Source of the DNA: Prochlorococcus sp. AG-402-K21
GTDB taxonomy: Bacteria; Cyanobacteriota; Cyanobacteriia; PCC-6307; Cyanobiaceae
NCBI GenBank assembly: GCA_003216775.1
Contig: QCII01000005.1
Span: 62,001-126,000 of the forward strand
Length of the DNA: 64,000 nucleotides
Reading direction: 5' to 3'
Part shown: positions 7,583 through 31,158 of the stretch, in pieces
Layout: each line of letters opens with the position of its first letter
How positions within the stretch are numbered: position 1 is the first letter of the stretch
Translations under genes and position numbers: made by a program
Notes under the pieces: model-generated
What the model saw: the letters and a program-made list of their open reading frames with translations, nothing else
The model's database searches: none
What the model was told of the DNA's origin: nothing

Positions 7583-7597
7583 ATACTTCACTAATTT

Positions 7598-8491
7598 ATG
7601 AACAAAAAAATTATTTCTGATAACTGTAACCTAAGTAATTATACAACTATAAAAGTTGGAGGTGTAGCTCAATACTTTTCTGAACCAAGAAGTATTGAGG
7701 AATTTTCATATCTAATGAAATGGGCTAATTTAAATGAACAAAGATGCCAAATAATAGGTGCAGGTTCAAATCTTTTAATAAATAATATTTTCATAAAAGG
7801 TTTAGTTATATGTACAAAAAAAATGAAATCATTGAGAATAGAGCCATGTTCGGGAATTGTTGAAGCGGAAGCAGGTGTAATGCTGCCAACATTATCTAAT
7901 TCTCTCGCTAAAAATGGATTACAAGGAGGAGAATGGGCTGTAGGAATTCCAGGAACATTAGGAGGAGCAATTTATATGAATGCTGGTACAGGTAATTTAT
8001 CGCTAGCTAAAAATCTTATTTCTGTGAAAGTAATTAATAATAAAACTCATGAAACACTTGAAATTGAGAAAAAAGATATAAATTTTGAATATAGATTTAG
8101 CTCTTTCCAAAATAATGATTTATCAATTATTAGTGCAAAACTACATTTTGAGCCTAATGGAGATCTCGAAAAATTAATTCAAACAACCAAAAATAACCTT
8201 AAATATAAAACAGATACTCAGCCATATCATCAACCAAGTTTTGGTAGTGTTTTTAAAAATCCTGAAAATAGTTATGCAGCAAAATTAATTGATGATATGG
8301 GTTTAAAAGGATCTAAAATTGGCGGCGCAGAAATTTCTACAATGCATTCAAATTTTATAATTAACAATTCTTCAGCAAGTTCAAAAGATATTTTTGAATT
8401 AATAACTTTAATTCAACAAAAAGTACTACAAAAAAAGGGGATTTATTTGCAACCGGAAGTTAGAATGATTGGTTTTGACTATCCTTATTAA
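7598..8491 (+). CDS. murB: UDP-N-acetylenolpyruvoylglucosamine reductase
   Basis: MurB uses NADPH and FAD to reduce the enolpyruvyl group to give UDP-MurNAc, the substrate of the adjacent MurC. FAD-binding motifs are GAGSNLLI (near residue 50) and [15 protein letters not shown] (near 115). [10 protein letters not shown] (near 210) contains the serine that protonates the intermediate. The C-terminal QPEVRMIG is typical. At 297 residues it is the shorter, Bacillus-like type II MurB. Placed directly after murC. Confidence 0.95.
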
Positions 8492-8508
8492 AGAAACTTT
8501 TTAATAAA

Positions 8509-8859
8509 ATGGCGGGTTTTGGACTTCCTAACTTTGGACAACTTACAGAAGCTTTTAAAAAAGCTAAACAAATTCAGCAAGATGCTCAAAAATTGCAAGA
8601 TGAGCTTGAAAATATGGAGATTGAAGGGAAAAGTGATGATGAAATGGTGAAAGTCTGGATAAGTGGCAACCAACTACCTTTGAAGGTAGAAGTGCAAGAA
8701 AATATTTTAAATTCAGATATAGAAAAAATAGAGCAAAATATTTTACAAGCCATGCAAAAAGCCCATGAATTATCTACTACCACTATGAAAGAAAGAATGA
8801 ATGATCTTACTGGTGGATTAAATCTTAATCTTCCTGGTTTTGATAATAGTGACTCTTAA
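8509..8859 (+). CDS. ybaB: YbaB/EbfC family nucleoid-associated protein
   Basis: The family forms small dimers that bind DNA and affect nucleoid structure. The N-terminus is a long amphipathic helix ([27 protein letters not shown]), followed by a strand region containing [21 protein letters not shown] and a C-terminal helix with [20 protein letters not shown]. All of this is diagnostic, as is the length of 116. It is third in the murC-murB-ybaB row, and its last 35 bases overlap the convergent rsgA gene. The link to cell-wall genes is positional only. Confidence 0.92.
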
Positions 8860-9742
8860 AAGACTCCATCATTTCCTTATAAAAAGAATATCTTTCGAAA
8901 GACTTATTTAAATTGCAACCCTCGTCATTTAAATGTAAGCAATTACGAAATTTACACCTAATTCCTGCATCAATTACTTGTTTATATATTTCAGAATAAA
9001 GGTTTGGTAACAAACTAGGATCAACCTCTAGAGGTTGCATATTAAAACCAGGAGTATCCACAATGTAACTTTGGTTTGAAATAGAAAATAATTCAACATT
9101 TCGAGTAGTGTTTTTCCCTCTCTTGATTTTCCTAGAAACTGGAGCAGTAATGTTATGAAGGCTGGGAATTATCATGTTAAGTAGTGTCGTTTTACCAACA
9201 CCAGAGGGACCCATCAAAATAGAACACTGTTTTTGCTTTAACTCAGCTAAAAAATTTTTAAAATAATCAGATTTCTGTAAATTTAAAGTTATTGCTTGGT
9301 AACCCCATTTTGCAAATTTATCAAGTAATAAAGTCCGTTTTTGATCAGATATTAAATCACACTTTGTCAAAACTAATGAAACTTCAACACCTATCGATTC
9401 TGCTGATATTAAAAACCTATTAACTTGAGATAAATTTAACTCTGGCTCTGCAACGGAAAAAACAATATAAATATTCGAAATATTTGCAACTGATGGTCTG
9501 GTTAACAAATTTTGTCTTGGTATTAGACTTTTTATTACTGCCCGTTTGCTTTCTAGATCGATATTATCAATTACTACCTCATCTCCAACATAAATAAATT
9601 GGTCTTTAAAATTTATGGCCTTCCTCACCTTACACAAAAATCTTTCATTATTTCCAAAGTTTTCGTTGTTTTTTAAGTCAACTAAAAAAAATTCATTAAA
9701 TTTTTTCGTAACTAAACCTAAATGTTTACTTTTATTTTTCAT
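8825..9742 (-). CDS. rsgA: Ribosome small subunit-dependent GTPase A
   Basis: RsgA helps late maturation of the 30S subunit and hydrolyses GTP when bound to it. The GTPase motifs are circularly permuted, the family hallmark: LTKCD (G4) comes before [12 protein letters not shown] (G1) and DTPGF (G3). The OB domain is N-terminal, and a C-terminal zinc region has [14 protein letters not shown]. Length 305 is normal. The start overlaps the end of the TusA-like gene by 11 bases, making it the last gene of grpE-dnaJ-tusA-rsgA. Confidence 0.94.
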
Positions 9743-9962
9743 TCACAATTTTTATTTTTAAAAATTTTTCATTTTTTTTGATTTGTATAAACAAACATCC
9801 CATCACTTTAAGATTATTTAATACCATTTCTTCTGGTTCACCCGTGTCTAATTCAACTATAAGTTGCTCATTTTTCGATAACTTCTCTAAAGCCAATTTA
9901 ATTTTTACTACATTTAAAGGGCATGGAACTGATTTAAGATCCAAATACTTTAAAAGAGGCAT
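9732..9962 (-). CDS. TusA/SirA-like sulfur-carrier family protein
   Basis: A 76-residue protein with the fold signature of TusA: LDLKSVPCPLNVVKIKLALEKL, a short acidic loop, and a second strand-helix-strand ending in basic residues. The single conserved cysteine in PCPLN is the position that carries a persulfide in TusA; the second proline of the classical CPxP motif is replaced by asparagine, so sulfur-carrier activity is not proved. Start and stop overlap dnaJ by one base and rsgA by 11 bases, so it is translated with them. Confidence 0.85.
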   Translation of the reverse strand: MPLLKYLDLKSVPCPLNVVKIKLALEKLSKNEQLIVELDTGEPEEMVLNNLKVMGCLFIQIKKNEKFLKIKIVNEK

Positions 9963-11086
9963 TAAGATTCTTTACCAAATAATTTACTAAAAAGACCACT
10001 ACTAGAATTGATATTTTTATCAGAATATTGAGAAGCTAAACCTTCTAAAAGCTTTCGCTCTTCCTCAGTAATGCGCGTTGGCAATTTTACCTTCACTAAA
10101 ACTTCATGATTTCCTCTTGCAACTGGATTACCAAGTCTAGGTACCCCTTTATTCTCGAGTGAAAGAGTTGTATTTGGTTGAGTACCGCTTGGGATTTTTA
10201 AATTAACGTTTCCATCAACTGTAACAATTTCAACAGTATCACCTAAAATAGCCTGTAGATAACTCACAGCTATTTCTGAATAAATAGTTACACCATCTCT
10301 TTTTAATTTTGAATCATTTTTCACCTTTATAAATACATAAAGATCTCCAGGTGGACCACCTCTCAAGCCTACATTTCCTTCTCCAGAAACTCTTAATTTA
10401 GTACCAGTATCAACTCCGGCAGGAATATTAATTCGTAAATTTTTTCTGACTTGCTTTACTCCATTACCACCGCAACTTGCACATGGATCTGCGATTATTT
10501 GACCAACTCCATTGCATGAGGGACATTCAGCTACTTGTGTAAAATTACCAAATGGTGTTCTAGTAGCTCTTCTAACTTGTCCACTTCCTCCACAAGTTGG
10601 ACAGGTTTTTGGTCCGGTCCCTGGTTTAGCACCCGTTCCACTACAAACTTCACATGTCTCGAGATGAGGAATTTTAATTTCTCTTTGTTGACCAAATATT
10701 GCATCCTTAAAATCAACATTAAGGTCATACCTTAAATCATCGCCTTGTTGAGGTCCTCTTCTTTGAGTTCTTCCTCCCTGTGGATTTTGTCCGCCAAAGC
10801 CATTAAAAAAGGTTTCAAATAAATCTGCAAAGCCACCCATGTCACCCATATCGGGCATTCCAGCTGCACCTCCTAGACCAGCCTCACCAAACTGATCATA
10901 TCTAGCTCTAGTTTCAGGATCGGCTAATGCTTCATAAGCCTTACCAATTTCTTTAAATTTATCTTCAGCGCCAGGTTCTTTATTAACGTCAGGATGATAT
11001 TGTCTTGCTAATTTTCTATAGGCCCTTTTTAAAGTATCCGCATCAGCATCTCTGGAAACTCCAAGTATTTGGTAAAAATCAGCCAT
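9962..11086 (-). CDS. dnaJ: Chaperone DnaJ
   Basis: Type I J-protein that stimulates DnaK ATPase and delivers substrates. Order of domains: J domain (residues 1-70 with the HPD motif in YHPDVN), Gly/Phe-rich linker (about 75-115), a zinc domain with four CxxCxGxG-type repeats ([32 protein letters not shown]), and C-terminal substrate-binding domains. The full set makes it a true DnaJ rather than a short J-protein. It follows grpE by 29 bases. dnaK itself lies about 33 kb away in this window. Confidence 0.96.
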
Positions 11087-11115
11087 TAGATAATGCTCAA
11101 GTAAAAATTTGGAAT

Positions 11116-11832
11116 TTATACATCTTCAGAAGTATTTTCATCTGAATCAATATCCTCTTCAACTTTATCCTTTTCTACTTCATCTTGTGAATCTTGTTTG
11201 CCAGGTCCCATAGAAACTTTAACTAGAGCATGTCTCAAGACCTTGCCTTCTAAATTATATCCTCGCTGTAATTCTTCGATAATAAAATCTTCATTAAGCT
11301 CTTCACTTGGCTCTTTTAATACTGCTTCATGCAAAGTTGGATCAAATTGCTGACCAACCACTCTCATAGGCGCGACTCCTTGTTGTTTTAAAACTTCTAC
11401 TAATTGTTTATACAATCCTTGATAACTTCTATGAAGAGCAAGCGCCTCTTCACTTTCTGGTTTAAGTTGTTGTCTTGCCCTCTCAAAATTATCAACAATA
11501 GGAAGTATTGAGGTTAAAGTCTTAGAAACAAGTTGGATTTTCAAATCATCCTGATCCCTCGACTGTCTTTTCCTAAAATTATCAAAATCTGCAGAAATTC
11601 TTACATATTGATTTTTTAATGTTTCATGCTCTTTTTCTAATTGTTCTAACCTTGCATCATTATTGGAAATAGTATTTTTTAATTCTTCAGTATTTATTTC
11701 GTCTATTTTTTGAGATGATTCATCATTTTTAATTATCGGATCCTCTAAAGGGGCAGCATCTTCGGAAGATTTATCCTGATCAGAAACGTTATTTTCTATA
11801 TTATCAATATTGTCTGATTGGTTTTCAATCAT
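11116..11832 (-). CDS. grpE: Nucleotide exchange factor GrpE
   Basis: GrpE releases ADP from DnaK. The first 50 residues are acidic and low-complexity, followed by a coiled-coil (about 55-90, [28 protein letters not shown]), and then the beta domain with [13 protein letters not shown] and [17 protein letters not shown], which are diagnostic. An acidic tail rich in Asp and Glu follows. It heads the grpE-dnaJ-tusA-rsgA row. No CIRCE element or other clear heat-shock operator is visible upstream. Confidence 0.95.
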
Positions 11833-11907
11833 ATTTCTAAAAAATTAATAAAACTATTCTCTATTAAAATGATGCACAAAACAAGTTGCGGAAGGCCGCA
11901 CAAATTT

Positions 11908-12402
11908 CTAATCAGGAATAAACCTTAATGCTAGGCCATTATTACAGTATCTTTTTCCTGTAGGAGGTGGCCCATCATTAAAGACATGACCTTGATGACC
12001 TCCACATCTAGAACAATGATATTCAGTTCTTGGAACAATTAGTTTGAAATCAATCTTTGTTTCGATTGATCCTTGAATTGAATCCCAAAAGCTTGGCCAT
12101 CCTGTGCCACTATCATATTTTTTATCTGAGAGAAAAAGCGGCAAATCACATCCTGCGCAGTGAAATACCCCTTTTCTTTTTTCATTATTTAATTCACTAC
12201 TGAAAGCTCTTTCAGTACCTTCTTCCCTCAAAATATAATAGGATTCTTTACTAAGCCTCGATTTCCATTCTTCCTTTGATAAATCCCACTCTTCTCTAGA
12301 ATTGTATGAAGAAGCAAACACTTGCATAGGCTTAAAGATTATTTTTAAGAATGACATAATAGGAATTAGAATAAAAATTCTTCTTGTTAGAAATTGATTC
12401 AT
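11908..12402 (-). CDS. msrB: Peptide methionine-R-sulfoxide reductase, probably exported
   Basis: MsrB repairs the R-form of methionine sulfoxide in proteins. The catalytic cysteine is C153 in GKRYCNN; two CxxC zinc pairs are C82/C85 (CAGC) and C130/C133 (CSRC); SGTGWPSFW is the substrate-binding strand. The first 31 residues look like an export signal with a twin-arginine start (LTRRIFIL), a hydrophobic core, and a VFAS cleavage-like end, so the enzyme probably works outside the cytosol, in periplasm or thylakoid lumen. It is divergent from dus. The name is firm, the location is inferred. Confidence 0.9.
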   Translation of the reverse strand: MNQFLTRRIFILIPIMSFLKIIFKPMQVFASSYNSREEWDLSKEEWKSRLSKESYYILREEGTERAFSSELNNEKRKGVFHCAGCDLPLFLSDKKYDSGTGWPSFWDSIQGSIETKIDFKLIVPRTEYHCSRCGGHQGHVFNDGPPPTGKRYCNNGLALRFIPD

Positions 12403-12423
12403 ATTTTTAAATCACATAAAGAA

Positions 12424-13428
12424 ATGAGTTTTAATCAACCTAATTCTACGAAAAATATTCATAAATTAAGTATTGCTCCAATGATGGATTGCACTGATAA
12501 ACATTTCAGAATGATAATGAGAAAAATAAGTTCTAAAGCGCTCCTGTATACGGAGATGATCGTGGCCCAAAGTTTAATTTACACAAATAAAAAAGAAAAT
12601 TTTCTAAATTTTAATAATGAAGAACACCCAATATCTATTCAATTTGGTGGAGACGATCCTTTAATCCTTAAAGAGGCTGCTCGAATGGCACAGGATTGGG
12701 GTTATGACGAAATAAACTTTAATGTTGGCTGTCCAAGTCCAAGAGTATGTTCTGGAAATTTTGGCGCTTCACTTATGAAAGATCCCGAAAAAGTAGCAAA
12801 ATGCATAAACTCTTTAAAAAATAACTGCAATTTACCAGTTACGATTAAACACAGAATCGGTGTAGACAACGATGACAGTTTTATGCATTTGAATAATTTC
12901 GTAAGGTGTATCGCAAATGCTGGTGCAGACAGATTTACAGTTCATGCTAGAAAAGCCATACTAAAAGGTCTAAATCCAAAACAAAACAGGACCATACCTC
13001 CACTTAAGTATGATGTAGTAAAAAAATTAAAAAAAATAAATCCAGACTTATTAATAGAAATCAATGGGGGTTTCACAGATATCGATGAATCATTAGAAGC
13101 TTTAAATGATTTTGATGGTGTCATGATTGGACGATCAGTTTATAAACATCCCTTGAGATGGTCTGATATTGATCAAAAAATTTATAAGATAAAAACAAAA
13201 GCAAAATCTGCTTCACAAATCATCTTCTCTTTAATTCCATACATAGAAAGACATCTAAGTAATGGAGGGGAATCTTGGGATATTTGTAAACATCTTATTA
13301 ACTTAGTAGAAGGTATCCCTAAAGCAAAAATTTGGAGGAGTCAAATCTCAAACAAATCTATAAAAAAAGAATTAGATATTGAATATTTAATTAAATTAAC
13401 GACTAGGCTTGAAGAAATGGGTTACTAA
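12424..13428 (+). CDS. dusA: tRNA-dihydrouridine synthase, DusA-like
   Basis: A flavin enzyme that reduces uridine in tRNA D-loops. It begins LSIAPMMDCTDKHFR, matching the flavin-binding start of DusA; the catalytic cysteine is in NVGCPSPRVCSGNFGASLM; VTIKHRIG, FTVHARKA and IEINGGFTD bind flavin and RNA. I place the start at ATG 12424 (334 residues); an in-frame TTG at 12394 would add 10 residues and overlap the msrB start. DusA rather than DusB/C is favoured by the motif spacing and by the HARKAILKGLNPKQNR segment. Convergent with the RRM protein by 4 bases. Confidence 0.92.
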   Translation: MSFNQPNSTKNIHKLSIAPMMDCTDKHFRMIMRKISSKALLYTEMIVAQSLIYTNKKENFLNFNNEEHPISIQFGGDDPLILKEAARMAQDWGYDEINFNVGCPSPRVCSGNFGASLMKDPEKVAKCINSLKNNCNLPVTIKHRIGVDNDDSFMHLNNFVRCIANAGADRFTVHARKAILKGLNPKQNRTIPPLKYDVVKKLKKINPDLLIEINGGFTDIDESLEALNDFDGVMIGRSVYKHPLRWSDIDQKIYKIKTKAKSASQIIFSLIPYIERHLSNGGESWDICKHLINLVEGIPKAKIWRSQISNKSIKKELDIEYLIKLTTRLEEMGY

Positions 13429-13907
13429 TTTTTCTCGTTTGAAGCATTGCTCTCATTAGAAACTCCCCGTTTTCTCCTACTCCTACCGCTTTCATATTCA
13501 GCATTTTCAGGAGAGTTTCCATAACTTCTATCTTCCCAACCTTCTGCACCAGAAGATTTGTTGGCGTAAGAGTCTTTAGGTTCAGAATTACCACCGCCAC
13601 CGTAGCCACCGCCACCGTAGCCGCCATTATTACCACCTCTTCCTCCTCTACGGGATCCACCAGAGCCTCTTGGTTCTGCCTTATTAATCCTTAATGGCCT
13701 ACCCATAAGCTCTGTACCCTGCAAACCATCAATTGCAGTTAATTCGATTGCTTCATCAGCCATCTCAACGAATGCAAATCCTCTTTTCCTTCCAGTATCT
13801 CTTTCCAGAGGGAGAGAACAATTTAAAACTTCACCGAAAGGGGCAAACAATTGTAAAACATCTTCACGCTCTGCACGGAAAGGCAAGTTGCCAACAAAAA
13901 TACTCAC
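13425..13907 (-). CDS. Cyanobacterial RRM RNA-binding protein, glycine-rich
   Basis: A single RNA-recognition motif covers residues 1-80, with RNP2 IFVGNL (3-8) and RNP1 RGFAFVEM (42-49). Residues about 85-110 are Gly/Arg/Tyr-rich (RRGGRGG and GYGGGG repeats), followed by a charged Ser/Asn/Glu tail. Cyanobacterial Rbp proteins of this type are known for cold induction and mRNA binding; which role applies here is unknown. The tail is longer than in the short Rbp forms (about 80-100 residues). A hairpin lies just upstream (13,936-13,959), with only 28 bases to this start. Confidence 0.92.
   Translation of the reverse strand: MSIFVGNLPFRAEREDVLQLFAPFGEVLNCSLPLERDTGRKRGFAFVEMADEAIELTAIDGLQGTELMGRPLRINKAEPRGSGGSRRGGRGGNNGGYGGGGYGGGGNSEPKDSYANKSSGAEGWEDRSYGNSPENAEYESGRSRRKRGVSNESNASNEKN
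13591..13620. repeat. 15-base tandem repeat in the RRM protein gene
   Basis: Two identical 15-base units (CCACCGCCACCGTAG on the plus strand), followed by a partial third, encode the GYGGG repeats of the glycine-rich linker. In frame, so copy changes would alter linker length without breaking the gene. Confidence 0.85.
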
Positions 13908-13935
13908 TTTAAATTCAACAAAAAAATTACCAATT

Positions 13936-13959
13936 AAAAAAACTACAAAAAGTAGTTTT
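13936..13959 (-). terminator. Rho-independent terminator-like hairpin after argH
   Basis: On the minus strand, an 8-base stem AAAACTAC / GTAGTTTT with a 5-base loop ends in a run of seven T. It lies 61 bases past the argH stop, where a terminator is expected. It also lies only 28 bases before the RRM gene start, so if that gene's promoter is upstream, the hairpin could act as an attenuator. Confidence 0.65.
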
Positions 13960-14019
13960 AAAACATTACTCTTTTATTCTACTTCAAAGCATACCCTAGT
14001 TGTAGAAAATAATTGAGAT

Positions 14020-15399
14020 TTAGAGTAACAATTTTTTTTGCCAATTATTTACCTCTTTTTCAACTTGTGTAAAACCTGTTCCACCTTGACTAGATCTTGA
14101 CTTAACGACATTAAAAGGTTCAAGATCGACAAAAACATCCTCATCAAATTCAGGATGAAATATTTTAAATTCATCAATTGTAAGATTTTTAAATAAAATT
14201 TTTCTCTCTAAGCAATACTTAACAATTTCACCAACAACTTGATAAGCGGTCCTAAAAGGAACCTTTTTACCAACTAAATAATCTGCTAAGTCAGTAGCAT
14301 TAGAAAAGTCATTTTCAACTGAATTAGATAAATTTTTAATATTAAATTCTATGCCCTCATTAATTAGAATTGTCATTGCTTTAATGCAAGAAGATATAGT
14401 CTCTGCAGTATCAAATATTGGCTCTTTATCCTCTTGAAAATCTTTATTATATGCTAGCGGTACACCTTTGACCATTGTTAACAACGCTTGAAGATTTCCA
14501 TACACTCTTCCAGTTTTTCCTCTTATCAATTCTGGAACATCTGGATTTTTTTTCTGAGGCATTAAGCTACTGCCGGTAGAACATTTATCTGTTAATTTTG
14601 CGAAAGAAAATTCATCAGTAACCCATAAAATTATTTCCTCAGAAATTTTGCTCAAATGAGACATTGCTAGAGCAGAGGCAGAGACAAACTCAATACAAAA
14701 ATCTCTATCACTCACTGCATCTATACTATTTTTATAAATTTTTTCAAAGCCTAATTCTGTAGCTGTAAAATTCCTATCGATTTTTATTTTTGTGCCAGCT
14801 AATGCTGCAGCTCCTAATGGAGAAATATTTACTCGAGATCTTACTTCTTTAAATCTTTCCCGATCTCTTTGAAACATTTCTAAATAAGCCAATAAATGAT
14901 GAGCTAAAGATAATGGTTGTGCTCTTTGCATATGAGTATATCCAGGAATTAAGGTATAAATGTTAGATTTAGCAAGATTAAAAAAGGATTTTTGCAGGTC
15001 AGTTATTAATATTTCAAGATTGTCAATTTCTTTCCGTAGCCATAATCTTATATCTGTGCCAACCTGATCATTTCTGCTTCTGCCTGTATGTAATTTTTTT
15101 CCAGTTTCGCCAATTAAGCTGATTAACTTTTCTTCAATACAATAGTGAATATCTTCAGATGGGGGACTTGGAGAAAATTTACCCTCCAAATACTCAACTT
15201 TTATTTCCTCTAAACCATTAATAATCTGTAAAGTTTCTGAAGATGATAAAACTTGGGTTTTTCCAAGCATCTTTGCATGAGCAATCGAGCAATCTATATC
15301 TTCCAAAATTAACTTTTTATCAAAACCAATTGAAGCATTAAATTTTTCAATAAAGGAGTTTAATGTATTATCAAATCTTTTACTCCAAACTTTTGCCAT
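14020..15399 (-). CDS. argH: Argininosuccinate lyase
   Basis: Last step of arginine synthesis: argininosuccinate to arginine and fumarate. The superfamily signature [12 protein letters not shown] is present near residue 275; [13 protein letters not shown] (near 105) and [15 protein letters not shown] (near 155) build the active site. Length 459 is typical. It starts 62 bases after the phosphatase gene stop and is followed by a terminator-like hairpin. argG, the preceding enzyme, is in this same window about 26 kb away on the other side of the origin. Confidence 0.97.
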
Positions 15400-15461
15400 A
15401 TCAATTAATAACTTTAGATATCTCTAATAAAGCATTTTTTTATATCGGTGACAAAAAATAT

Positions 15462-16805
15462 CTATTTCAATTGAAAAATTACAATAGATGCATCATCTTC
15501 CAAATGTCCATTTTGTCCTGTAAAGTCGTCTAATTTTTTAAATATCTTATTTAAAATTTCTTGTGATGTATAAGATTGCTTACAAAGTTTCATAAGGGTT
15601 TTGATTAGCCTTTCCTCATCAAATCTTTCGCCTAAAGAATTAGAAGTGTCAATTACACCATCTGTGTAATAAAGGACTAAATCATTTTCATTAAGCTTAA
15701 CTTCTCCACAATGATATTCAGCATTTTTTTGTAGTCCAAGGACAAATCCCTCTGCATCTAATTTTATGATTTTCTGATCTGAACTTTTCCAAAGCAAAGG
15801 AGGATTATGTGCTGCATTAGCAAATCTCAACTTTCTCGTTCTAGGGTCATAATCTGAATAAAACAATGTCACAAATCTATGTGATTGATCTAAATCATTT
15901 ATTGCAAGTTGATTCAAATCATGCAAAATTCTATCTGGCGGCAGCCCTGTAAGAACCTCTGCACGAAGCATTCCCCTTAACATAGTCATTAGAAGACCAG
16001 CAGGAATTCCTTTACCCATAACATCCCCAATCACCAGAGCCCATCTGGCTTTTTCTTTTCTTTTATCTGAGATATTCGTCTTTAAGCACATAAAATCATA
16101 GTAATCTCCTCCCAACTGGAGAGCAGGCCTACAATGAGCAGCAAGATCTACACCATAAATAATTGGACAATACTCTGGGAGTAATTGAGATTGTATTTCA
16201 GCTCCAGTAGAAATTTCTCTATCTATATTCTCATGCTTTTTCTTTATTTTTATAAGACAATGATTTTCTAATCCAACAGCGAGACAACTTTGAATAAAAT
16301 TAAAATTACTATCTTTAGTAATTGCTTGACTAGATAGATCTTTACTAAAAATATATATAAAACCTCTACATTTACCTCTAGATAAAATTTTTTCTGTTTC
16401 AATTTTATATTCTTTAAAATTATTTTTTAGCGCGTCTTCAAAAGAAATAATTTCTTTAATTTTAAAATTTTTAGTAAATTTAAATTTATTAAAAAAATTA
16501 TTAATTTCTTCTTGAATTTTTAAATATCTATTATCGGCAGAAATCCTTATATTTTCATGCCATATATCACCCTCATGATCTAAAGGAATAATAAATATTA
16601 TTTTTTCGTTAAATATATGTTTTAGGATTAAGGATATATAGTCAAGTAATTTATTTACGTTTGAAAAGGATTTTAAATAATATGCCAATGACGATGCAAT
16701 TTCAGCAAATTTATATTTATTTTTTAAAAATTCTGAGGATTCACTTTCTAAAATTTTTTGTATAAATTTGTTTGACAATAATTTTTCTTTTTGATTATTT
16801 GTCAC
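15462..16805 (-). CDS. PP2C/SpoIIE-family serine phosphatase with an N-terminal sensor-like region
   Basis: The C-terminal half (about residues 200-447) is a SpoIIE/RsbU-type PPM phosphatase: GAEIQSQLLPE, AAHCRPALQLGGDYYD, VIGDVMGKGIPAGLLM, RFVTLFYSDYDP, ANAAHNPPLLW, DLVLYYTDGVIDTS and DDASIVIF, with metal-binding aspartates in place. The N-terminal half is Lys/Asn/Ile-rich with weak similarity to a GAF-like sensor fold; this part is inference. The start is GTG at 16805; no nearby ATG exists. Such phosphatases often control anti-sigma antagonists or other regulators, but no partner kinase is next to it here. It sits in the ftsY-to-argH row. Confidence 0.85.
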   Translation of the reverse strand: MTNNQKEKLLSNKFIQKILESESSEFLKNKYKFAEIASSLAYYLKSFSNVNKLLDYISLILKHIFNEKIIFIIPLDHEGDIWHENIRISADNRYLKIQEEINNFFNKFKFTKNFKIKEIISFEDALKNNFKEYKIETEKILSRGKCRGFIYIFSKDLSSQAITKDSNFNFIQSCLAVGLENHCLIKIKKKHENIDREISTGAEIQSQLLPEYCPIIYGVDLAAHCRPALQLGGDYYDFMCLKTNISDKRKEKARWALVIGDVMGKGIPAGLLMTMLRGMLRAEVLTGLPPDRILHDLNQLAINDLDQSHRFVTLFYSDYDPRTRKLRFANAAHNPPLLWKSSDQKIIKLDAEGFVLGLQKNAEYHCGEVKLNENDLVLYYTDGVIDTSNSLGERFDEERLIKTLMKLCKQSYTSQEILNKIFKKLDDFTGQNGHLEDDASIVIFQLK

Positions 16806-16872
16806 AACAAATTGAATAGATAAATATGTTTTAACATTAAATTTAAACTTTTAAAAAAATTTAATTAAATAT

Positions 16873-18090
16873 TTATTTATCTGCAAGCAAAGCCTCCACA
16901 AATTCATAACTATTAAAAGGTCTCAAATCTTTTATGCCTTCCCCAGCCCCAATAAATCTTATGGGCAAATTAACTTCTTCAGAGACAGCTAAAGAGACCC
17001 CTCCTCTCGAAGTTCCATCTAGTTTAGTAATAATTGCTCCACTTAAATTTGCTGATTTAGCAAAACTTTTTGCTTGTTTTAAGCCATTTTGTCCTTGACT
17101 TGCATCTAAAACCAATAATGATTCAACAATTGCATCTGGAACCTTTTTATCAATAATTTTTTTTATTTTTGCCAATTCATCCATCAAATTATTTTTTGTT
17201 TGCAATCTACCGGCTGTATCAACTAGTAATAACTCAACATTTCTTTTTTTTGCAGAATTGATTGCATCAAAAACTACAGCAGCTGGATCAGCATTTTTTG
17301 ATTGATTTGATATAACATCAACATTACTCCTCTCCCCCCATACTTTTAATTGTTCTACTGCCGCTGCTCTAAAAGTATCAGCAGCAGCTATTAAGGTTTT
17401 AAAATTACTCCTTGATGACAAATATGCTAATTTTCCTAATGTAGTGGTTTTACCAACGCCATTTACTCCTACTAATAACCAGACATTTAACTTACCTTTT
17501 TGAGGCACTAAAAGATCAGTACCTGAATTTATTATTGGTTTATCGATAATTAATTTTAATTCCTTCTTTAAGAATTTTATTCCTGCTTCTCCCCCTACGA
17601 CTTCTTCGTTTAATTTTTTTCTGAGAGCACTTATTACTTTATCAGTTGAATCAATCCCAACATCAGCTCTTATTAATAATGTCTCTAAATCATCTAGAGA
17701 TTCAGGAGTAAGAGGATCATCTCCCAATTTGTCCAATAATTCAGTAACAAATCCTTTTCTTGTTTCTTCTAGTCCTTTTCTTAATTTAGTTAACCAATCA
17801 ATTTCATCTATAGATATTTGATTTATTTTTTTTCCTTGAGAAGCTAGAACCATCGCCGACCAAGTAAAATTATCATCAAATTCTCCTAATTCAGTATCTG
17901 CATTAGCTTTAGCAGGAATAAGATTTTCTTTAGCAATCAATTCTTGCTTTTGCTCTTCTTGTAGCTGCAATTCTTGCTTTTGCTCTTCTTGTAGCTGCAA
18001 TTCTTGCTTTTGCTCTTCTTGTCTTTTTTTTAAAAGTGCATAAGCTTGTGCAGCCCACTCTCGTGAATTATCAGAATCAATATTAGTCAT
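16873..18090 (-). CDS. ftsY: Signal recognition particle receptor FtsY
   Basis: FtsY is the membrane-associated GTPase that docks SRP-ribosome complexes to the translocon. The NG domain has GVNGVGKTTTLGKLA (G1), DTFRAAAVEQL, DTAGR (G3), TKLDGTSRGG (G4) and the closing GAGEGIKDLRPF. The N-terminal A-domain (about residues 1-60) is made of a repeated 10-residue unit EEQKQELQLQ from a 30-base tandem repeat and is then acidic. Length 405 depends on repeat number. Downstream of nusB by 59 bases. Confidence 0.96.
   Translation of the reverse strand: MTNIDSDNSREWAAQAYALLKKRQEEQKQELQLQEEQKQELQLQEEQKQELIAKENLIPAKANADTELGEFDDNFTWSAMVLASQGKKINQISIDEIDWLTKLRKGLEETRKGFVTELLDKLGDDPLTPESLDDLETLLIRADVGIDSTDKVISALRKKLNEEVVGGEAGIKFLKKELKLIIDKPIINSGTDLLVPQKGKLNVWLLVGVNGVGKTTTLGKLAYLSSRSNFKTLIAAADTFRAAAVEQLKVWGERSNVDVISNQSKNADPAAVVFDAINSAKKRNVELLLVDTAGRLQTKNNLMDELAKIKKIIDKKVPDAIVESLLVLDASQGQNGLKQAKSFAKSANLSGAIITKLDGTSRGGVSLAVSEEVNLPIRFIGAGEGIKDLRPFNSYEFVEALLADK
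17941..18022. repeat. 30-base tandem repeat in the 5' part of ftsY
   Basis: About 2.7 identical copies of a 30-base unit (starting TTCTTGCTTTTGCTCTTCTT on the plus strand) give EEQKQEL(QLQ) repeats in FtsY. The copies have no differences, which points to recent slippage or recombination. In frame, since 30 is divisible by 3. Confidence 0.95.
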
Positions 18091-18149
18091 TGATATTTTT
18101 GGTCCATATTTAATAAAATTTTAAAATATTATTTATTTAAATCAAAGAA

Positions 18150-18779
18150 TCATTGCAATTTTACTGTTTGTAATCTCCTTAAAACTCCATTAATAAATTT
18201 TCTTCCTTGTATATCACTATATTTATTAGCTAGATTTACTGCTTCATCACAAGCAACAGCAACTGGTGTACTCAAAAAATTGATATCAACATAGGCTAAA
18301 CGCAAAATATCTCTATCAATTCTTGGCAATCTTTTTAATCTCCAACCATCCATTGATTGATCAATATCAGAATCAATAATTTTAAGATTATTAATTATCT
18401 TACTAATCCTATCGCTCACATCATCTCTAATATCGATTTGTCCACTAGAAACTATTAATTTTGGAAAATCTAAAGTAACTGAAAGTGTATTCATCACAGT
18501 TTCAATTTTTTGTAGAGATTTCTTTAAGTCATCTCTAACGTTTGAAAAAGAGGAACCAACACCTTCATGAAGTTCACTATCTAATATTTTTTGTGATGCA
18601 TTTTCTAAATCTGATTCGCAATTGTCTAACTCATCTCTACAGTGGTTTATTAGAGTATCTAAAGCAGCTTCAAAAATTTCCTCTATCTGCAATTTATTCA
18701 ATTTAAAATAACCTTTATCTTTTATCAGACCTAAAGAAATTAAGGATAATTCTCTAGAAAGGGATCTATTATTATGCAT
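18150..18779 (-). CDS. nusB: Transcription antitermination protein NusB
   Basis: NusB acts with NusE (ribosomal protein S10) on boxA RNA to keep polymerase going through rRNA operons. The family's C-terminal signature is present: RLPRIDRDILRLAYVDI, TPVAVACDEAVNLANKY and GRKFINGVLRRL. At 209 residues it is longer than the roughly 140 of E. coli; the extra length is an insertion of about 60 charged residues after the first helices, as seen in other cyanobacteria. I take ATG at 18779 rather than the TTG one codon earlier. It follows the DUF502 gene by three bases. Confidence 0.9.
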   Translation of the reverse strand: MHNNRSLSRELSLISLGLIKDKGYFKLNKLQIEEIFEAALDTLINHCRDELDNCESDLENASQKILDSELHEGVGSSFSNVRDDLKKSLQKIETVMNTLSVTLDFPKLIVSSGQIDIRDDVSDRISKIINNLKIIDSDIDQSMDGWRLKRLPRIDRDILRLAYVDINFLSTPVAVACDEAVNLANKYSDIQGRKFINGVLRRLQTVKLQ

Positions 18780-18782
18780 CAA

Positions 18783-19517
18783 TTAAGAGGATGTATTAGT
18801 AGAAGCACGTAATTGAGAAAATAGTTTTGAAAATGTTGGATTTGTAGTGTTGTTTTTCTCATCTGGATTAACAATACCAGCCGATATTATTGTTCTAAAA
18901 GCATCTTCAACAGAAATATCTAAATCCTTCACAGAAGACTCTGGAACCAATGTATACCAACCAGTAGTTGGGTTAGGTGCTGTAGGTATAAAAACACTTA
19001 GCAATTTTTCTTCCAATTCTGGCTTCAGAGAAGGACCAACATCACCTGTTACAAAACCTACGCTATATAGTCCCTCACGTGGATATTCAACTAAAACAAC
19101 TCTTCTAAATCGATTAGATTTGTTACTTAAAAAAGTTTCGAGCAATTGTTTAAGAGTTTTATAAACTGCACCAGCTATAGGAATTTTTGATAATGTGCCT
19201 TCTCCAAATTCTAATAACCACCTTCCAACAAAATTTCTCGCCATTAAGCCTATAAGCAAAATCGCTAATAAAGGCACAGTTAAACCCAAAGAAAGATTGA
19301 TTAAATCTTGTAATAAAGGATTTAAAGTTATAAATGGATTTAACTGCTTAGGAACAGAAGTTACTAAGGTTAATACAAATTTACTAACTAATGAGGATAA
19401 CCAGATAGTAGTAGCTAATGGTATTACAACCAATAACCCTGCTATAAGATCATTTTTTAGATCCTGTTGAAGCCTAGATCCTAAGTTCGAATCTTGATTT
19501 TGATTAGATTCAACCAA
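18783..19517 (-). CDS. DUF502 family membrane protein
   Basis: Two transmembrane segments are visible (LIAGLLVVIPLATTIWLSSLVSKFVL, residues about 25-50, and LINLSLGLTVPLLAILLIGLMARN, about 72-95). A soluble domain follows with IPIAGAVYKTLKQLLETFL, EYPREGLYSVGFVTG and FIPTAPNPTTGWYTLVPE, the conserved DUF502 strings. Function unknown. Start is TTG at 19517, as no ATG is available. It directly precedes nusB and ftsY. Divergent from queG across a 144-base gap. Confidence 0.88.
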   Translation of the reverse strand: MVESNQNQDSNLGSRLQQDLKNDLIAGLLVVIPLATTIWLSSLVSKFVLTLVTSVPKQLNPFITLNPLLQDLINLSLGLTVPLLAILLIGLMARNFVGRWLLEFGEGTLSKIPIAGAVYKTLKQLLETFLSNKSNRFRRVVLVEYPREGLYSVGFVTGDVGPSLKPELEEKLLSVFIPTAPNPTTGWYTLVPESSVKDLDISVEDAFRTIISAGIVNPDEKNNTTNPTFSKLFSQLRASTNTSS

Positions 19518-19530
19518 AATAATGTTTTTT

Positions 19531-19579
19531 CTATACTAACTTTACTAATAATTTAACTGTTTTGACTAAGTTAGGATAG
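19531..19579. repeat. Imperfect inverted repeat in the DUF502-queG divergent region
   Basis: Arms CTATACTAACTT (19531-19542) and AAGTTAGGATAG (19568-19579) pair with one mismatch around a 25-base spacer. A run of nine T follows on the plus strand. No gene on the plus strand ends nearby, so an operator-type or leader role is more likely than termination. Confidence 0.4.
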
Positions 19580-19661
19580 ATTTTTTTTTAATTAATTTAA
19601 ATTATTTATTAGTTTCTTCTCGAAAATAACCCTCAGAATAAATTTTATACATAATAAAGAT

Positions 19662-20609
19662 ATGATAATTGCTATTCAAAACAAAATAGAAATAAGTAAA
19701 AAATTAAAAGAAAGAGCCATTTTTGAAGGTTTTACAATAGCTGGAATTGCATCGATACCAGGCAGCTCACGAATAAAATTAAGGACTAATGCATTAGAAA
19801 GATGGTTATCAAATAACAACCATGCAGAGATGAAATGGATGGAAGCAGAGAGAAGAAAAAACATAGGATCACTGCTTGAAGATGCAAAAAGTGTACTAAG
19901 TGTTGGATTTAGTTACATAAATTCTAACAACAACAACAACAACTTCTTAAAAGTTGGGAAGTTTAGTCAAGGAGCCGATTATCATAAAGTAATCTACAAA
20001 AAATTAAAGAATATTGGTCACTGGATTAACCTAGAAATCCCAGATTGCAAATGGAAAATATGTGTTGACACGTCACCTCTTCTTGAAAAAGCATGGGCTG
20101 AGGAATCAGGTATAGGTTGGATAGGTAAAAATAGTAATTTAATAAGCAAAAGAAATGGTTCTTGGTTTACTTTAGGTTTTTTGATCCTTACAAAAGATTT
20201 AATTCCAGATAAACCTCATCAATCACTTTGCGGTAAATGTGATAAATGTATTGAACATTGCCCCACTAATGCAATTGTAGAACCCTTTGTAATACAATCA
20301 GACCTTTGTATTGCGTATCACACAATAGAAAGTAGACAAAAGACATTTCCAAAGAAAATAGAAGAAAATTTAAATGGATGGGTTGCTGGATGTGATATTT
20401 GTCAAGATGTATGCCCTTGGAATAAATCAGTGCCAAATAACAACACTTTTGAAACTACTCCGAAAGAATGGATCAAGAATCTAAATGTTGAATCGTTAAA
20501 TTGGGATGACAAAACGTGGGAAGACAATCTTAAAGGAACTACATTAAAAAGAATTAAGCCATGGATGTGGAAGAGAAACATAAAAGCAAATCTAAATATT
20601 AAACAATAA
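19662..20609 (+). CDS. queG: Epoxyqueuosine reductase
   Basis: QueG, a cobalamin-dependent iron-sulfur enzyme, reduces epoxyqueuosine in tRNA to queuosine. Two ferredoxin-like clusters are visible: CGKCDKCIEHCPTNAI (near residue 192) and GCDICQDVCPWN (near 245). Typical N-terminal strings are FTIAGIASIPG and YHKVIYKKL, and the cobalamin-binding region has VDTSPLLEKAWAEESGIGWIGKN. A run of six AAC codons (19926-19943) gives a short poly-Asn loop. queC and queE lie at the other end of the window, consistent with a full queuosine pathway. Confidence 0.93.
   Translation: MIIAIQNKIEISKKLKERAIFEGFTIAGIASIPGSSRIKLRTNALERWLSNNNHAEMKWMEAERRKNIGSLLEDAKSVLSVGFSYINSNNNNNNFLKVGKFSQGADYHKVIYKKLKNIGHWINLEIPDCKWKICVDTSPLLEKAWAEESGIGWIGKNSNLISKRNGSWFTLGFLILTKDLIPDKPHQSLCGKCDKCIEHCPTNAIVEPFVIQSDLCIAYHTIESRQKTFPKKIEENLNGWVAGCDICQDVCPWNKSVPNNNTFETTPKEWIKNLNVESLNWDDKTWEDNLKGTTLKRIKPWMWKRNIKANLNIKQ
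19926..19943 (+). repeat. AAC x6 microsatellite in queG
   Basis: Six in-frame AAC codons encode a poly-asparagine loop in QueG. Likely length-variable between strains. Confidence 0.9.
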
Positions 20610-28554: not shown

Positions 28555-29715
28555 TTAAGAACGAACCTGAACAGGCATAACTAGATAAGTAAAAGAATTA
28601 AGATTATCTTCTGGAACAAAAACAGCTGGAGTAGTTGAAAGATTACATTTTAAAAGCACATTTTCAGACGAAATAACTTTTAACCCTTCTAAAAGATATC
28701 TAACGTTAAATGCAATATCAAAATTTTCTCCAGAATTGGAAACAGGAATGGATTCATTTGCATTTCCAATATCTTGTGCATCTGCACTTATTGAAGCTAA
28801 ATCTGTATTATCCAATTTAATTTTTACAACACTACTTTGTTGATCAGCTAAAACAGCAATTCTTTCTAATGCATCAATTAATTGTTTAGTATTAAAATTA
28901 AAAATCTTAGAAAAAGTATCAGGAATTAATTGTGAATAATTCGGATAATTACCTTCAAGGGTTCTTGTTGTGATTATCTGATTAGAAGAGATAAAAACTA
29001 CCTGACCTTTGTCATAGAAAAGCTTTATTGCATTTTCTGAGCTTCTCAAAGAAACTAATTTTTCAATTTCTCTTAATGATCTAGTTGGAATAGTTACTGA
29101 CAACTCTCCTTCACTTGACGATAGGTTATCTTGATTGGGAAGATGCTCCTCATCGTTACCAATTAGAGCAACTGCCAACCTATGACCATCTGTTGAAGCA
29201 GACTCTAAATAATTTTGTTTAAAAGTAAAATTAACACCTGTGAGTAATTGCTTTGAATCATCATTACTACTAGAAAAAATGGTCAATTTAAGAGCTTTTA
29301 GAAAAGAATTTGGTTCAATATTTAGAGAAGTACCACTTTCAACAAATGGTAAATTAGGATATTCATCAGAAGGTATTCCTTTGAGGTTAAAAGAACCTCT
29401 ATCACTTTGCATCAAAATATTATCAGATTCCTCATCAACTTTTAAAGATACAGGAGTTTCACTAGGTAATTTGTTTACTATTTCAGATAACAGTTTTGAA
29501 GGTATTGTTATAGCTCCACTATTTTTGACAGTTCCATCAAAAGAGGTTTGAATTCCTAAATTAAGATCAAATCCTGTCAAGCTAATCTTATTTGTTCCTT
29601 GGTCAGCTGTTAAAAGTATATTTGCGAGAATTGGATGCGTTGGTCGAGAAGCAACTGCTTTACTGACTAGTTGAATAGCATTATTTAACTCATTTTGATT
29701 ACAAATAATCTCCAT
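28555..29715 (-). CDS. dnaN: DNA polymerase III beta sliding clamp
   Basis: DnaN is the ring clamp that tethers the replicative polymerase. The protein begins MEIICNQNELNNAIQLVSKAVASRPTHPILAN and ends with VMPVQVRS (the family's usual MPxR-like end), with three repeated clamp domains; TGVNF, STDGHRLA and GNYPNY are diagnostic. I start at ATG 29715 (386 residues); the GTG at 29739 would add 8 residues and is unlikely. It lies at the edge of the candidate origin; a perfect DnaA-box match begins 15 bases upstream of its ATG. Confidence 0.97.
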   Translation of the reverse strand: MEIICNQNELNNAIQLVSKAVASRPTHPILANILLTADQGTNKISLTGFDLNLGIQTSFDGTVKNSGAITIPSKLLSEIVNKLPSETPVSLKVDEESDNILMQSDRGSFNLKGIPSDEYPNLPFVESGTSLNIEPNSFLKALKLTIFSSSNDDSKQLLTGVNFTFKQNYLESASTDGHRLAVALIGNDEEHLPNQDNLSSSEGELSVTIPTRSLREIEKLVSLRSSENAIKLFYDKGQVVFISSNQIITTRTLEGNYPNYSQLIPDTFSKIFNFNTKQLIDALERIAVLADQQSSVVKIKLDNTDLASISADAQDIGNANESIPVSNSGENFDIAFNVRYLLEGLKVISSENVLLKCNLSTTPAVFVPEDNLNSFTYLVMPVQVRS

Positions 29716-29729
29716 CGGAATTTGGAACT

Positions 29730-29738
29730 TTATACACA
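29730..29738 (+). promoter_or_regulatory. DnaA box, perfect consensus match
   Basis: TTATACACA fits TTATNCACA exactly. It lies 15 bases upstream of the dnaN ATG and would overlap a transcription start directed by the TATATT at 29742-29747, so DnaA bound here could repress dnaN. Confidence 0.7.
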
Positions 29739-29741
29739 CAC

Positions 29742-29747
29742 AATATA
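29742..29747 (-). promoter_or_regulatory. Possible -10 element of dnaN
   Basis: TATATT on the minus strand, about 26 bases before the dnaN ATG; no clear -35. A TATAAA at 29729-29734 is an alternative but would leave almost no leader. Confidence 0.35.
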
Positions 29748-29826
29748 CTTTTTTCGTAAATTAAATTCAATAAGGCTTTTTTTTATCTCTTTTCTAATAT
29801 TAAAATTAATAAAAAAATAAAATATT

Positions 29827-29844
29827 TAGTAGTAGTAGTTGTTG
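29827..29844 (+). promoter_or_regulatory. DnaA-trio-like repeat (TAG x4, TTG x2)
   Basis: Read 3' to 5' away from the adjacent DnaA boxes, the plus strand is GTT GTT GAT GAT GAT GAT, the orientation and sequence described for DnaA-trio elements that load DnaA onto one strand. It borders the boxes on one side and an AT-rich tract on the other. Confidence 0.6.
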
Positions 29845-29851
29845 TGTAAAC
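29843..29851 (-). promoter_or_regulatory. DnaA-box-like 9-mer
   Basis: Plus-strand TGTGTAAAC (GTTTACACA on the minus strand), one mismatch from TTWTNCACA. It abuts the next box without a gap. Confidence 0.6.
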
Positions 29852-29860
29852 TGTGGAAAT
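29852..29860 (-). promoter_or_regulatory. DnaA-box-like 9-mer
   Basis: Plus-strand TGTGGAAAT (ATTTCCACA on the minus strand), one mismatch from the TTTTCCACA box reported for a Synechococcus origin. Head-to-tail with the previous box. Confidence 0.65.
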
Positions 29861-29905
29861 TTTAATACAAATAAATTGATCACTGTATTTTTCAATATTT
29901 ATTTA

Positions 29906-29914
29906 AGTGGAAAA
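29906..29914 (-). promoter_or_regulatory. Weak DnaA-box-like 9-mer
   Basis: Plus-strand AGTGGAAAA (TTTTCCACT on the minus strand), one mismatch from TTTTCCACA, but at the usually invariant last base, so binding is less certain. Confidence 0.4.
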
Positions 29915-30024
29915 AAAATATTGTTTGTTGAATAAATTAAAAATTTTTCAATAAAAAAAAAATTATTAAACAAATTTAATAAGTTTTTATATATTTTTCA
30001 ACAGATCACCTTAGTTTTTTATTG

Positions 30025-30033
30025 ATTTCCACA
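30025..30033 (+). promoter_or_regulatory. DnaA-box-like 9-mer, opposite orientation
   Basis: ATTTCCACA on the plus strand, the same sequence as the box at 29852-29860 but inverted, near the thrC end of the gap. Confidence 0.6.
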
Positions 30034-30054
30034 GACACTAATTTTTTTGGATTT

Positions 30055-31158
30055 TTAATAACCCAAGATTTTGATAATATCCTTTAATGATGGTTCAATA
30101 TTTTTCCTGAAAATAGCATCATTGTTTTTAATTGCACAATCAGGGTCTTTTAAACCATTTCCAGTAAGAACACAAACAATAGTAGATTCCTTTTGAATTC
30201 TATTTTTGTTTTTAATAAGTCCAGCAACTGACGCTGCACTTGCAGGTTCACAAAAAACTCCTTCTTTTGCAAGTATTTTATAGGCATTAATTATTTCTTC
30301 ATCTGTCACCGACTGAAAGTCTCCTTTACTCTCTTTTTTTACTTTTTTTGCTTTTTCTCTATTTACAGGATTTCCAATTCTTATTGCTGTTGCAATTGTC
30401 TCTGGATTTTTAACTATTATATTTTGCACCAATGGAGCAGAGCCTTCAGATTGAAAACCCATCATTATTGGTAATTTTAAATTCCTTTTTATTTTTGCAT
30501 ACTCTTTAAATCCCATCCAATACGCGGTAATATTTCCTGCATTTCCCATGGGAATGCAAAGCCAATCAGGTGCAATGCCTAAGTCATCAACAATTTCAAA
30601 AGCTGCTGTCTTTTGGCCTTGTATTCGATATGGATTTACAGAATTAACAAGTTCTACTGGATGTTCTGAGGATAAATCTTGAACAATTTCAAGAGCTTTA
30701 TCAAAATTTCCATTAATAGATATGATCTCAGCTCCATACATCAAAGCTTGTGCCAGCTTTCCTTGAGCAACAAATCCTTCTGGAATTAAAACATAAGGCT
30801 TTAACCCTCCTCTGGAAGCATATGCAGCAGCAGCAGCAGAAGTGTTCCCAGTACTTGCACAAATTACTGCTTCACGGCCATCTTCTTTTGCTTTGCTAAT
30901 TGCCATAGTCATTCCACGATCTTTAAAGGATCCTGTTGGATTTAGACCGTCATATTTTAAAAAAACCTTTGTGCCATTTCCAATTATATTGCTGATTGAA
31001 TCACTAAAAATTAGGGGAGTATTTCCCTCATTTAGCGAAATGATAGGAGTTTTTTTTGTAACCGGAAGATATTGCTTATAAGCTTTGATTAGACCTGGCC
31101 ATGTTTTTTTTCTGTAATTAATATGCAGTTTATTTTTGATTTTATTTAATAACGACAT
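30055..31158 (-). CDS. thrC: Threonine synthase
   Basis: PLP enzyme making threonine from phosphohomoserine. The PLP lysine is in LNPTGSFKDRGM (near residue 80), ASTGNTSAAAAAYASR follows, and the phosphate loop is PMGNAGNITAYW. Length 367 matches the short, Bacillus-like class I enzyme. It is last in ABC1K-DUF1400-thrC on the minus strand, 11 bases after the DUF1400 gene, and its 3' end borders the origin candidate, from which it is read towards dnaN. Confidence 0.95.
   Translation of the reverse strand: MSLLNKIKNKLHINYRKKTWPGLIKAYKQYLPVTKKTPIISLNEGNTPLIFSDSISNIIGNGTKVFLKYDGLNPTGSFKDRGMTMAISKAKEDGREAVICASTGNTSAAAAAYASRGGLKPYVLIPEGFVAQGKLAQALMYGAEIISINGNFDKALEIVQDLSSEHPVELVNSVNPYRIQGQKTAAFEIVDDLGIAPDWLCIPMGNAGNITAYWMGFKEYAKIKRNLKLPIMMGFQSEGSAPLVQNIIVKNPETIATAIRIGNPVNREKAKKVKKESKGDFQSVTDEEIINAYKILAKEGVFCEPASAASVAGLIKNKNRIQKESTIVCVLTGNGLKDPDCAIKNNDAIFRKNIEPSLKDIIKILGY

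Follow-up and report, generated by a model that had tools for sequence, protein, structure and literature searches.

A candidate basal unwinding module between dnaN and thrC of Prochlorococcus and the drift of its DnaA-trios in GC-rich relatives

Architecture of the dnaN-thrC gap

The gap between dnaN and thrC in the 64-kb stretch of DNA analyzed here (the window) is very probably the replication origin (oriC) of this Prochlorococcus strain, opened by a basal unwinding system (BUS). The gap (29716..30054) spans 339 bp with a G+C content of 18.3%, as against 31.2% for the window. It is bounded by dnaN, for the sliding clamp (28555..29715, minus strand, ATG at 29715), and by thrC, for threonine synthase (30055..31158, minus strand, ending at 30055), both named from their sequences and from the literature on the locus. 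A search of positions 29000-31000 gave no Rfam match, so no RNA family was found in the gap, and a search of the gap for a terminator found none.

Read on the minus strand, the core of the gap consists of two abutting, co-oriented DnaA boxes, ATTTCCACA (box 1, 29852..29860) and GTTTACACA (box 2, 29843..29851), a 4-nt spacer, ACAA (29839..29842), of nearly fixed length and free sequence, then CTACTACTACTA, and finally AT-rich DNA toward dnaN. The plus strand reads TAGTAGTAGTAGTTGTTG at 29827-29844 and TGTGTAAACTGTGGAAAT at 29843-29860. With the cyanobacterial DnaA box TTTTCCACA as the reference for mismatches, boxes 1 and 2 carry one and two mismatches respectively, confirming the original prediction of two exactly abutting DnaA-box-like 9-mers at 29843-29860. 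The four DnaA-trios (29827..29838, plus strand) read TAG four times 5' to 3', that is, four 3'-GAT-5' units running away from the boxes. A longer run, TAGx4 followed by TTGx2 over 29827-29844, had been proposed; the TAG trios stand, while TTGTTG falls away as two further trios, since it comprises the 4-nt spacer and, next to it, the first two bases of box 2. The spacer is also less conserved than the trios (82% column identity versus 98%). Past the trios lies an AT-rich tract (29761..29826), the probable unwinding region, in which a recount found the 7 G/C in 60 bases reported for 29761-29820. Such a tract was rejected as evidence in its own right, since it is not rare: 495 of the 63,941 sixty-base segments of the window are equally G/C-poor.

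Three further box-like 9-mers, each with one mismatch, lie on the thrC side: TTTTCCACT (29906..29914, minus strand), for which the consensus of relatives differs from the version in the window strain, and, in the opposite orientation, TTTTCAACA (29995..30003, plus strand) and another copy of ATTTCCACA (30025..30033, plus strand). Their column identities among close relatives are 91.3%, 98.9% and 98.6% respectively. No exact TTTTCCACA occurs in the gap (29716-30054); boxes with at most one mismatch number four, as against 0.16 expected from their density in the window. On the dnaN side there is a promoter-like stretch (29716..29770, minus strand) with the consensus match TTGAAT-17-TATATT; matches of this kind number 5 versus 4.0 expected from shuffles. 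The part of it at 29716-29760 is 95.8% conserved over 78 sequences (the window and 77 of the best 80 of 155 dnaN relatives), versus a gap mean of 88%.

The published program for finding BUS modules requires a DnaA box that departs from the motif by no more than 2 bases and, no further than 16 b from it, three or more 3'-NAN-5' trios; a second tandem box is optional (PMC8287927). The gap presents each of these elements: box 1 lies within the two mismatches to the species motif that are allowed, box 2 within the four allowed for a tandem box, at a gap of 0 (0-3 allowed), and the four trios are on the right strand, separated by 4 b from box 2 and by 13 b from box 1. The last distance is the commonest published spacing between the better box and the trios (PMC8287927). 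The order known from the Bacillus system, which had been recognized from the sequence, is thus borne out by both the layout and the 13-bp spacing. BUS modules have been reported in 1755 of 2070 origins, and that of Synechococcus elongatus was tested in vitro (PMC8287927).

The same genome encodes a 464-aa DnaA whose trio-reading residues are those of B. subtilis, save for an Asp in place of Asn196. It is the only match to the DnaA family in the assembly, a draft of 20 contigs, and lies on another contig than the gap. In an alignment of 31 cyanobacterial DnaAs (its own and 30 others; B. subtilis numbering), Glu183, Asn187, Ile190, Ile193, Arg202, Lys222, Glu223, Glu228 and Arg264 are kept in all 31. 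In B. subtilis, Asn187 and Glu183 contact the middle base of a trio and Arg202 and Glu228 the first, and Ile190 and Ile193 flank the third (PMC10721633, PMC8287927). At position 196, where B. subtilis has an Asn that touches the third trio base, 30 of the 31 have Asp and one has Gly; the third base drifts from T to C on the trio strand. The DnaAs of two genomes whose DNA upstream of dnaN has no module (G439 and G311) keep the trio-reading residues as well; the residues are therefore not specific evidence and by themselves do not prove use of the module. One contig (G134:C1) has weak DnaA-like matches at six places, all equal and covering DnaA residues 159-266 at 27% identity; these are perhaps helper ATPases of an insertion sequence.

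Conservation of the module and the middle base of its trios

A scan of named genomes gave 155 dnaN relatives, of which the best 80 were kept (77 titled Prochlorococcus and 3 uncultured Synechococcaceae). In 77 of these thrC lies upstream on the same contig; in L007, L049 and L073 the contig ends before thrC, and they were left out of the alignment. The resulting 78 gaps (the window, 74 Prochlorococcus-titled and 3 Synechococcaceae-titled loci) are close relatives, all 333-347 b long. All 78 contain the box pair followed by at least three CTA in register. The first trio is CTA in each of them, with four CTA in 63 and three in 15, and the exceptions all concern the first base (13 TTA, 2 ATA). 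The middle T is invariant in 312 of 312 trio cells, 78 of which, those of trio 1, helped in placing the unit. Placement assumed a spacer of 4 and a box gap of 0 or -1; a free scan gave a solution for 71 of the gaps, and in all 71 the best solutions include gap 0 with spacer 4. Column identity among these 78 sequences (the window and 77 of the best 80 of 155) is 97.9% for box 1, 92.3% for box 2, 82% for the spacer and 98.4% for the trios, versus 86% for the DNA upstream of the box pair and 88% for the gap as a whole, so that the boxes and trios are more conserved than the DNA upstream of them. Box 2 of the window strain is degenerate; 44 of the 78 sequences have GTTCCCACA instead. An alignment across related strains had been proposed as a check on the TAG run and box pair, and both are conserved in all 78 gaps as well as in many other families of the class.

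To follow the trios further afield we compared 121 regions upstream of dnaN: that of the window strain, 80 from genomes of the same class and 40 more from the same family (f1), which we infer to comprise Prochlorococcus and Synechococcus-like picocyanobacteria. Trios were counted in 114 of these, leaving out six in which boxes and trios were not found (G392, G439, G298, G311, G267 and G438) and G181, whose box 1 is cut off by the start of the record (the sequence there is CTACTACGGCTA). The finder used for the 114 regions fixed the spacer at 4 and the box gap at 0 or -1 and favored a trio 1 beginning with C and T; the unit was thus located from the boxes and the first trio, and trios 2-4 played no part in its placement. 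A free scan left 15 of the 114 regions without a solution; spacer 4 was among the best in 98 of the other 99 and gap 0 in 86 of the 99 (the rest -1 or 1). GC classes were defined by the last 250 b before dnaN, with the cut at 36%.

In the 40 members of the family below 36% GC the middle base on the box strand is T in every cell of trios 1-3, and G in 7 of 40 for trio 4. The 16 genomes of other families likewise have a middle T in all cells of trios 1-3 (trio 4 has G in one and C in one), and one of them, with 66% GC just before dnaN, keeps CTAx4. In the 58 family members at or above 36% GC, the box-strand middle base of trios 2-4 is T in 85 cells, G in 80, A in 6 and C in 3; on the trio strand this corresponds to A85, C80, T6 and G3. 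In the same 58 genomes, a box-strand C stands first in 166 of the 174 cells of trios 2-4 and an A or G stands third in 172 of them, and trio 1 is CTA or CTT in 56 of 58.

The direction of these changes was reconstructed by parsimony over all four trios on a FastTree phylogeny of DnaA proteins, 85 of whose 87 tips have a counted module; DnaA was sought for the tree in 60 genomes, of which G137, G020 and G066 gave no match and G012 a fragment only, and all four are off the tree. On the box strand about 19 changes from T go to G, 1.5 to A and 0.9 to C, and 11.5 changes from G go back to T, 2.1 to C and 1.5 to A. On the trio strand, then, about 19 of 21 changes away from A lead to C, versus 23% at control sites: at 48 fourfold-degenerate sites of dnaA, which are saturated and were also treated by parsimony, T-to-G changes make up 78 of 339 (Fisher p 5e-10 on rounded counts). 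In 60 flanking columns, placed by distance from the unit alone and with 9 of them inside box 1, they make up 108 of 502, or 21.5% (28% upstream, 18% downstream).

The middle trio base has been published as a conserved adenine, and cytosine, which carries the same amino group, can replace it in Bacillus (PMC10721633). In B. subtilis in vitro, cytosine in the first trio gives a rate like that of adenine and guanine and thymine do not; in vivo, strains with cytosine in trios 1-3 grow better and initiate more than those with guanine or thymine (PMC10721633). The reason proposed for this tolerance is that the amino group is contacted by Asn187, and the authors noted that homologs might therefore recognize a range of sequences (PMC10721633). 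The pattern in the GC-rich relatives, where drift away from A leads almost exclusively to the base that B. subtilis tolerates best, is what this amino-group rule predicts, and the trios of the family drift mostly within the tolerance of the B. subtilis pocket: first G (sometimes A in AT-rich genomes), middle A or C, third mostly T or C.

A competing explanation is that GC pressure is simply eroding the altered trios of the GC-rich relatives and that DnaA does not read them. It could draw on the confinement of the changes in trios 1-3 to genomes of a single family with GC-richer upstream DNA, on the near constancy of trio 1 and on the roughly 3.6 changes in which a trio-strand C, once acquired, was replaced by G or T. 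However, under GC pressure T to C on the box strand is also to be expected, yet it accounts for about 1 of 21 changes versus about 19, and the control sites and flanking columns do not share this preference for G. Simple decay also sits poorly with the retention of the first-base C and with the unaltered CTAx4 in the genome with 66% GC before dnaN. We regard decay as unlikely and think it probable that picocyanobacteria read their trios by the amino rule, as 3'-(G, sometimes A)-(A or C)-(mostly T or C)-5', with the middle A and C having been swapped to and fro many times in GC-rich lineages in front of an unchanged Asn187 pocket of DnaA. If this reading of the alignments is correct, natural variation would bear out the base-capture mechanism deduced from B. 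subtilis.

The effect on searches was gauged with a simplified version of the published criteria, applied to one strand: a single box no more than 2 mismatches away from TTTTCCACA, a distance of 0-16 b and at least three trios with a middle adenine. In most of the GC-rich relatives this adenine-only version does not recover three or more in-register 3'-NAN-5' trios beside the box: its hits start at trio 1 in 6 of the 58 genomes, and any candidate at all is seen in 36. Admitting A or C raises the hits starting at trio 1 to 51 of 58. Both versions succeed in 39 of the 40 AT-rich members and in all 16 genomes of other families. Thus, if the amino rule holds, a search limited to adenine would, for most of the family's GC-rich origins, overlook the unwinding site or put it in the wrong place, and origin-finding programs would need one letter changed.

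Probable origin position and genomes without the module

The Prochlorococcus origin was placed between dnaN and thrC in 2010 from skew, neighboring genes and DnaA boxes, at the same locus as the present gap; a trio or unwinding module is not mentioned in the accessible text of that paper (PMC2836286). Ocean metagenomes show V-shaped coverage with one high-coverage origin in Prochlorococcus, the locus going unnamed in the accessible text (PMC9589681). GC skew in the window is -0.088 to the left of the gap and +0.001 to the right, a weak difference (rank test p 0.013 on non-independent 1-kb bins). The original prediction had named a skew minimum elsewhere as a refuting result: a weak switch does occur near the gap; against the gap, the best single break of the window falls at 33.5 kb, about 3.7 kb away. 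In a genome of the same genus (G136), for which 20 regions were sampled and region 1-20000 lies outside the half-genome compared, skew is -0.034 to the left of dnaN (n=12) and +0.019 to the right (n=7; one-sided p 0.014), although individual regions differ in sign. The clearest signal comes from G009, a relative with a complete genome, GC-richer DNA upstream and dnaA at the start of its record. Over 20 sampled 20-kb regions its best break among 20-kb steps is at dnaN, with a skew difference of 0.063 that was equaled in 0 of 20,000 permutations; at dnaA the difference is -0.024, so that there is no switch there; on the circle, dnaA and the skew switch are about 0.9 Mb apart. The convention that equates dnaA with the origin would thus misplace the origin in G009, where skew points to dnaN. 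One-contig records of G009, G023, G205, G092, G039, G161, G003, G031 and G058 all begin at or near dnaA, with dnaN more than 0.5 Mb away. Conservation, the weak skew switch nearby and the published locus prediction together support the gap as the candidate oriC it had been taken for.

With no more than 1 mismatch allowed, a strict pattern of the unit matches 161 of 242 genomes of the class, in one copy each save for one genome with two; its reversed control gives 4 matches. The figure of 161 is a lower bound because, among 20 upstream regions of genomes missed by the pattern, five carry trios behind diverged boxes (G261, G306, G390, G370 and G287). Part of the absence is real: eight of the 20 keep tandem boxes with no trio run after them (G349, G357, G363, G356, G403, G426, G338 and G295; L320, L321, L334, L324-L328), six have neither (G340, G433, G410, G374, G421 and G331) and one is doubtful (G450). 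Looser patterns were discarded. One applied over the family proved too permissive, the reversed control being equal or higher in many genomes, and the upstream DNA was therefore compared directly; a relaxed pattern run on 72 missed genomes (81 less 9 of the own family) matched 16, exactly as many as its reversed control, and is uninformative. Some of the relaxed-pattern matches look right by eye.

In the set of 121, boxes and trios were not found within 1 kb upstream of dnaN in the six genomes named above; the absence of the module from several genomes indicates that cyanobacteria can do without it. In one of the six, G267, a strict unit lies near dnaA instead (unit at C1:1861-1888, dnaA at C1:1108-1314, dnaN at C1:3080759), and the module can thus sit apart from dnaN. 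The trio slot of G356, G403 and G426 and of G438, which is of the same genus, is occupied by a common GTACAATAGTAC. A dnaA gene (PF08299) was found in 237 of the 242 class genomes. Three genomes of 99% completeness gave no dnaA match (G380, G386 and G392), and all three are without a strict unit, G380 having one match to the uninformative relaxed pattern; two incomplete genomes also gave none, G336 with a strict unit and G348 without.

Rather than marking an origin, the boxes and trio run could be imagined to be a site through which DnaA regulates dnaN or thrC, given the conserved promoter-like stretch directly before dnaN and the regulation of genes by DnaA in other bacteria (PMC11317965). 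This is very improbable: the trio strand and spacer are kept over many families in which box 1 and dnaN are anything between about 120 and 660 b apart, there is a skew switch at or near dnaN (weakly in the window and G136, and in G009), and in G267 the strict pattern sits by dnaA, 3 Mb in coordinates from dnaN. We give equally little credence to the proposal that the gap is the origin but no longer depends on DnaA for initiation and retains the module as a relic, the situation reported for Synechocystis 6803 and Nostoc 7120. DnaA-independent replication is indeed known in some cyanobacteria (PMC7198777), and the genomes that keep boxes without trios might be read in the same sense, as origins that possibly left the DnaA-trio mechanism. 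However, a relic is expected to decay, yet the middle T is unchanged throughout the trio cells of the 78 closely related gaps (the window and 77 of the best 80 of 155), and the reading residues of DnaA are intact, though equally so where the module is missing. Chance assembly of low-complexity sequence, for which the 82% A+T of the gap and its unexceptional 60-base tract might speak, is negligible given that 5,000 dinucleotide shuffles of the gap yielded (CTA)4 in 0, an abutting box pair in 7 and the full unit in 0, and is contradicted by conservation across relatives and class; moreover, the abutting box pair occurs once in the window and the strict pattern once in the whole genome of the strain.

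Proposed mechanism and comparison with known origins

DnaA binding, filament growth and unwinding at the gap can be envisaged by analogy with B. subtilis and S. elongatus. Two DnaA molecules would dock on the abutting boxes (29843-29860), and their AAA+ domains would form the first base-capturing pocket. More DnaA would then extend along the plus strand over the four trios (29827-29838), each pocket capturing the first two bases of a trio and thereby pulling the strands apart into the AT-rich tract toward dnaN; this tract would open, with helicase loading to follow. The boxes on the thrC side probably hold extra DnaA, perhaps by looping; a loop has been proposed in B. subtilis (PMC6669920), and this is a possible role for the upstream boxes that face the opposite way.

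The position of the origin, the box motif and the general module are already known, the first published in 2010, and the caution on novelty in the original prediction was right. Our literature search found no paper combining the DnaA-trio with Prochlorococcus; the supplementary BUS table of PMC8287927 may list the genus. Natural variation of the middle base of the A/C kind is not described in the accessible text of PMC8287927, PMC6323995, PMC10225481 and PMC10721633. The nearly fixed 4-nt cyanobacterial spacer and the A/C drift in GC-rich relatives appear to be unreported in the literature searched. The window offers a compact, clearly bounded candidate for the unwinding module of a photosynthetic organism that ranks among the most abundant, and the variation among its relatives addresses a question left open by the 2023 Bacillus structure paper, namely whether the trio code is wider than a middle adenine. 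If the amino rule holds, the loss of trios from origins that retain their boxes may also come to serve as a recognizable sign of departure from DnaA control. The position of the origin also bears on growth estimates from metagenomes: one such method places dnaA-bearing fragments at the origin (PMC7852909), which would be wrong for genomes such as G009.

The closest mechanistic model is the BUS of B. subtilis oriC, formed by DnaA-boxes 6 and 7 and the DnaA-trios (PMC6669920, PMC8287927, PMC10721633). The Prochlorococcus module shares with it two co-oriented boxes beside a 3'-GAT-5' run followed by AT-rich DNA, the placement of the better box 13 bp from the trios and a DnaA with the same trio-reading residues. 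The B. subtilis origin is inactive after reversal of box 6, or of boxes 6 and 7 together (PMC6669920); the box pair in the window likewise points toward its trios. The Prochlorococcus module differs from that of B. subtilis in having four trios instead of six, in its location between dnaN and thrC with dnaA elsewhere, and in the spacer, which is nearly always 4 nt, and the boxes, which are mostly abutting, in the cyanobacteria compared. Within the class, two genomes of another family (f11) have TTTTCCACA twice, GCCC and then CTA(C/T)TACTACTG upstream of dnaN. The nearest studied relative is the oriC of Synechococcus elongatus, with the box TTTTCCACA and BUS unwinding in vitro (PMC8287927), which resembles the Prochlorococcus module in class, dnaN as neighbor, boxes, spacer and trios; in comparison, the Prochlorococcus boxes are weaker and the spacer is AT-rich.
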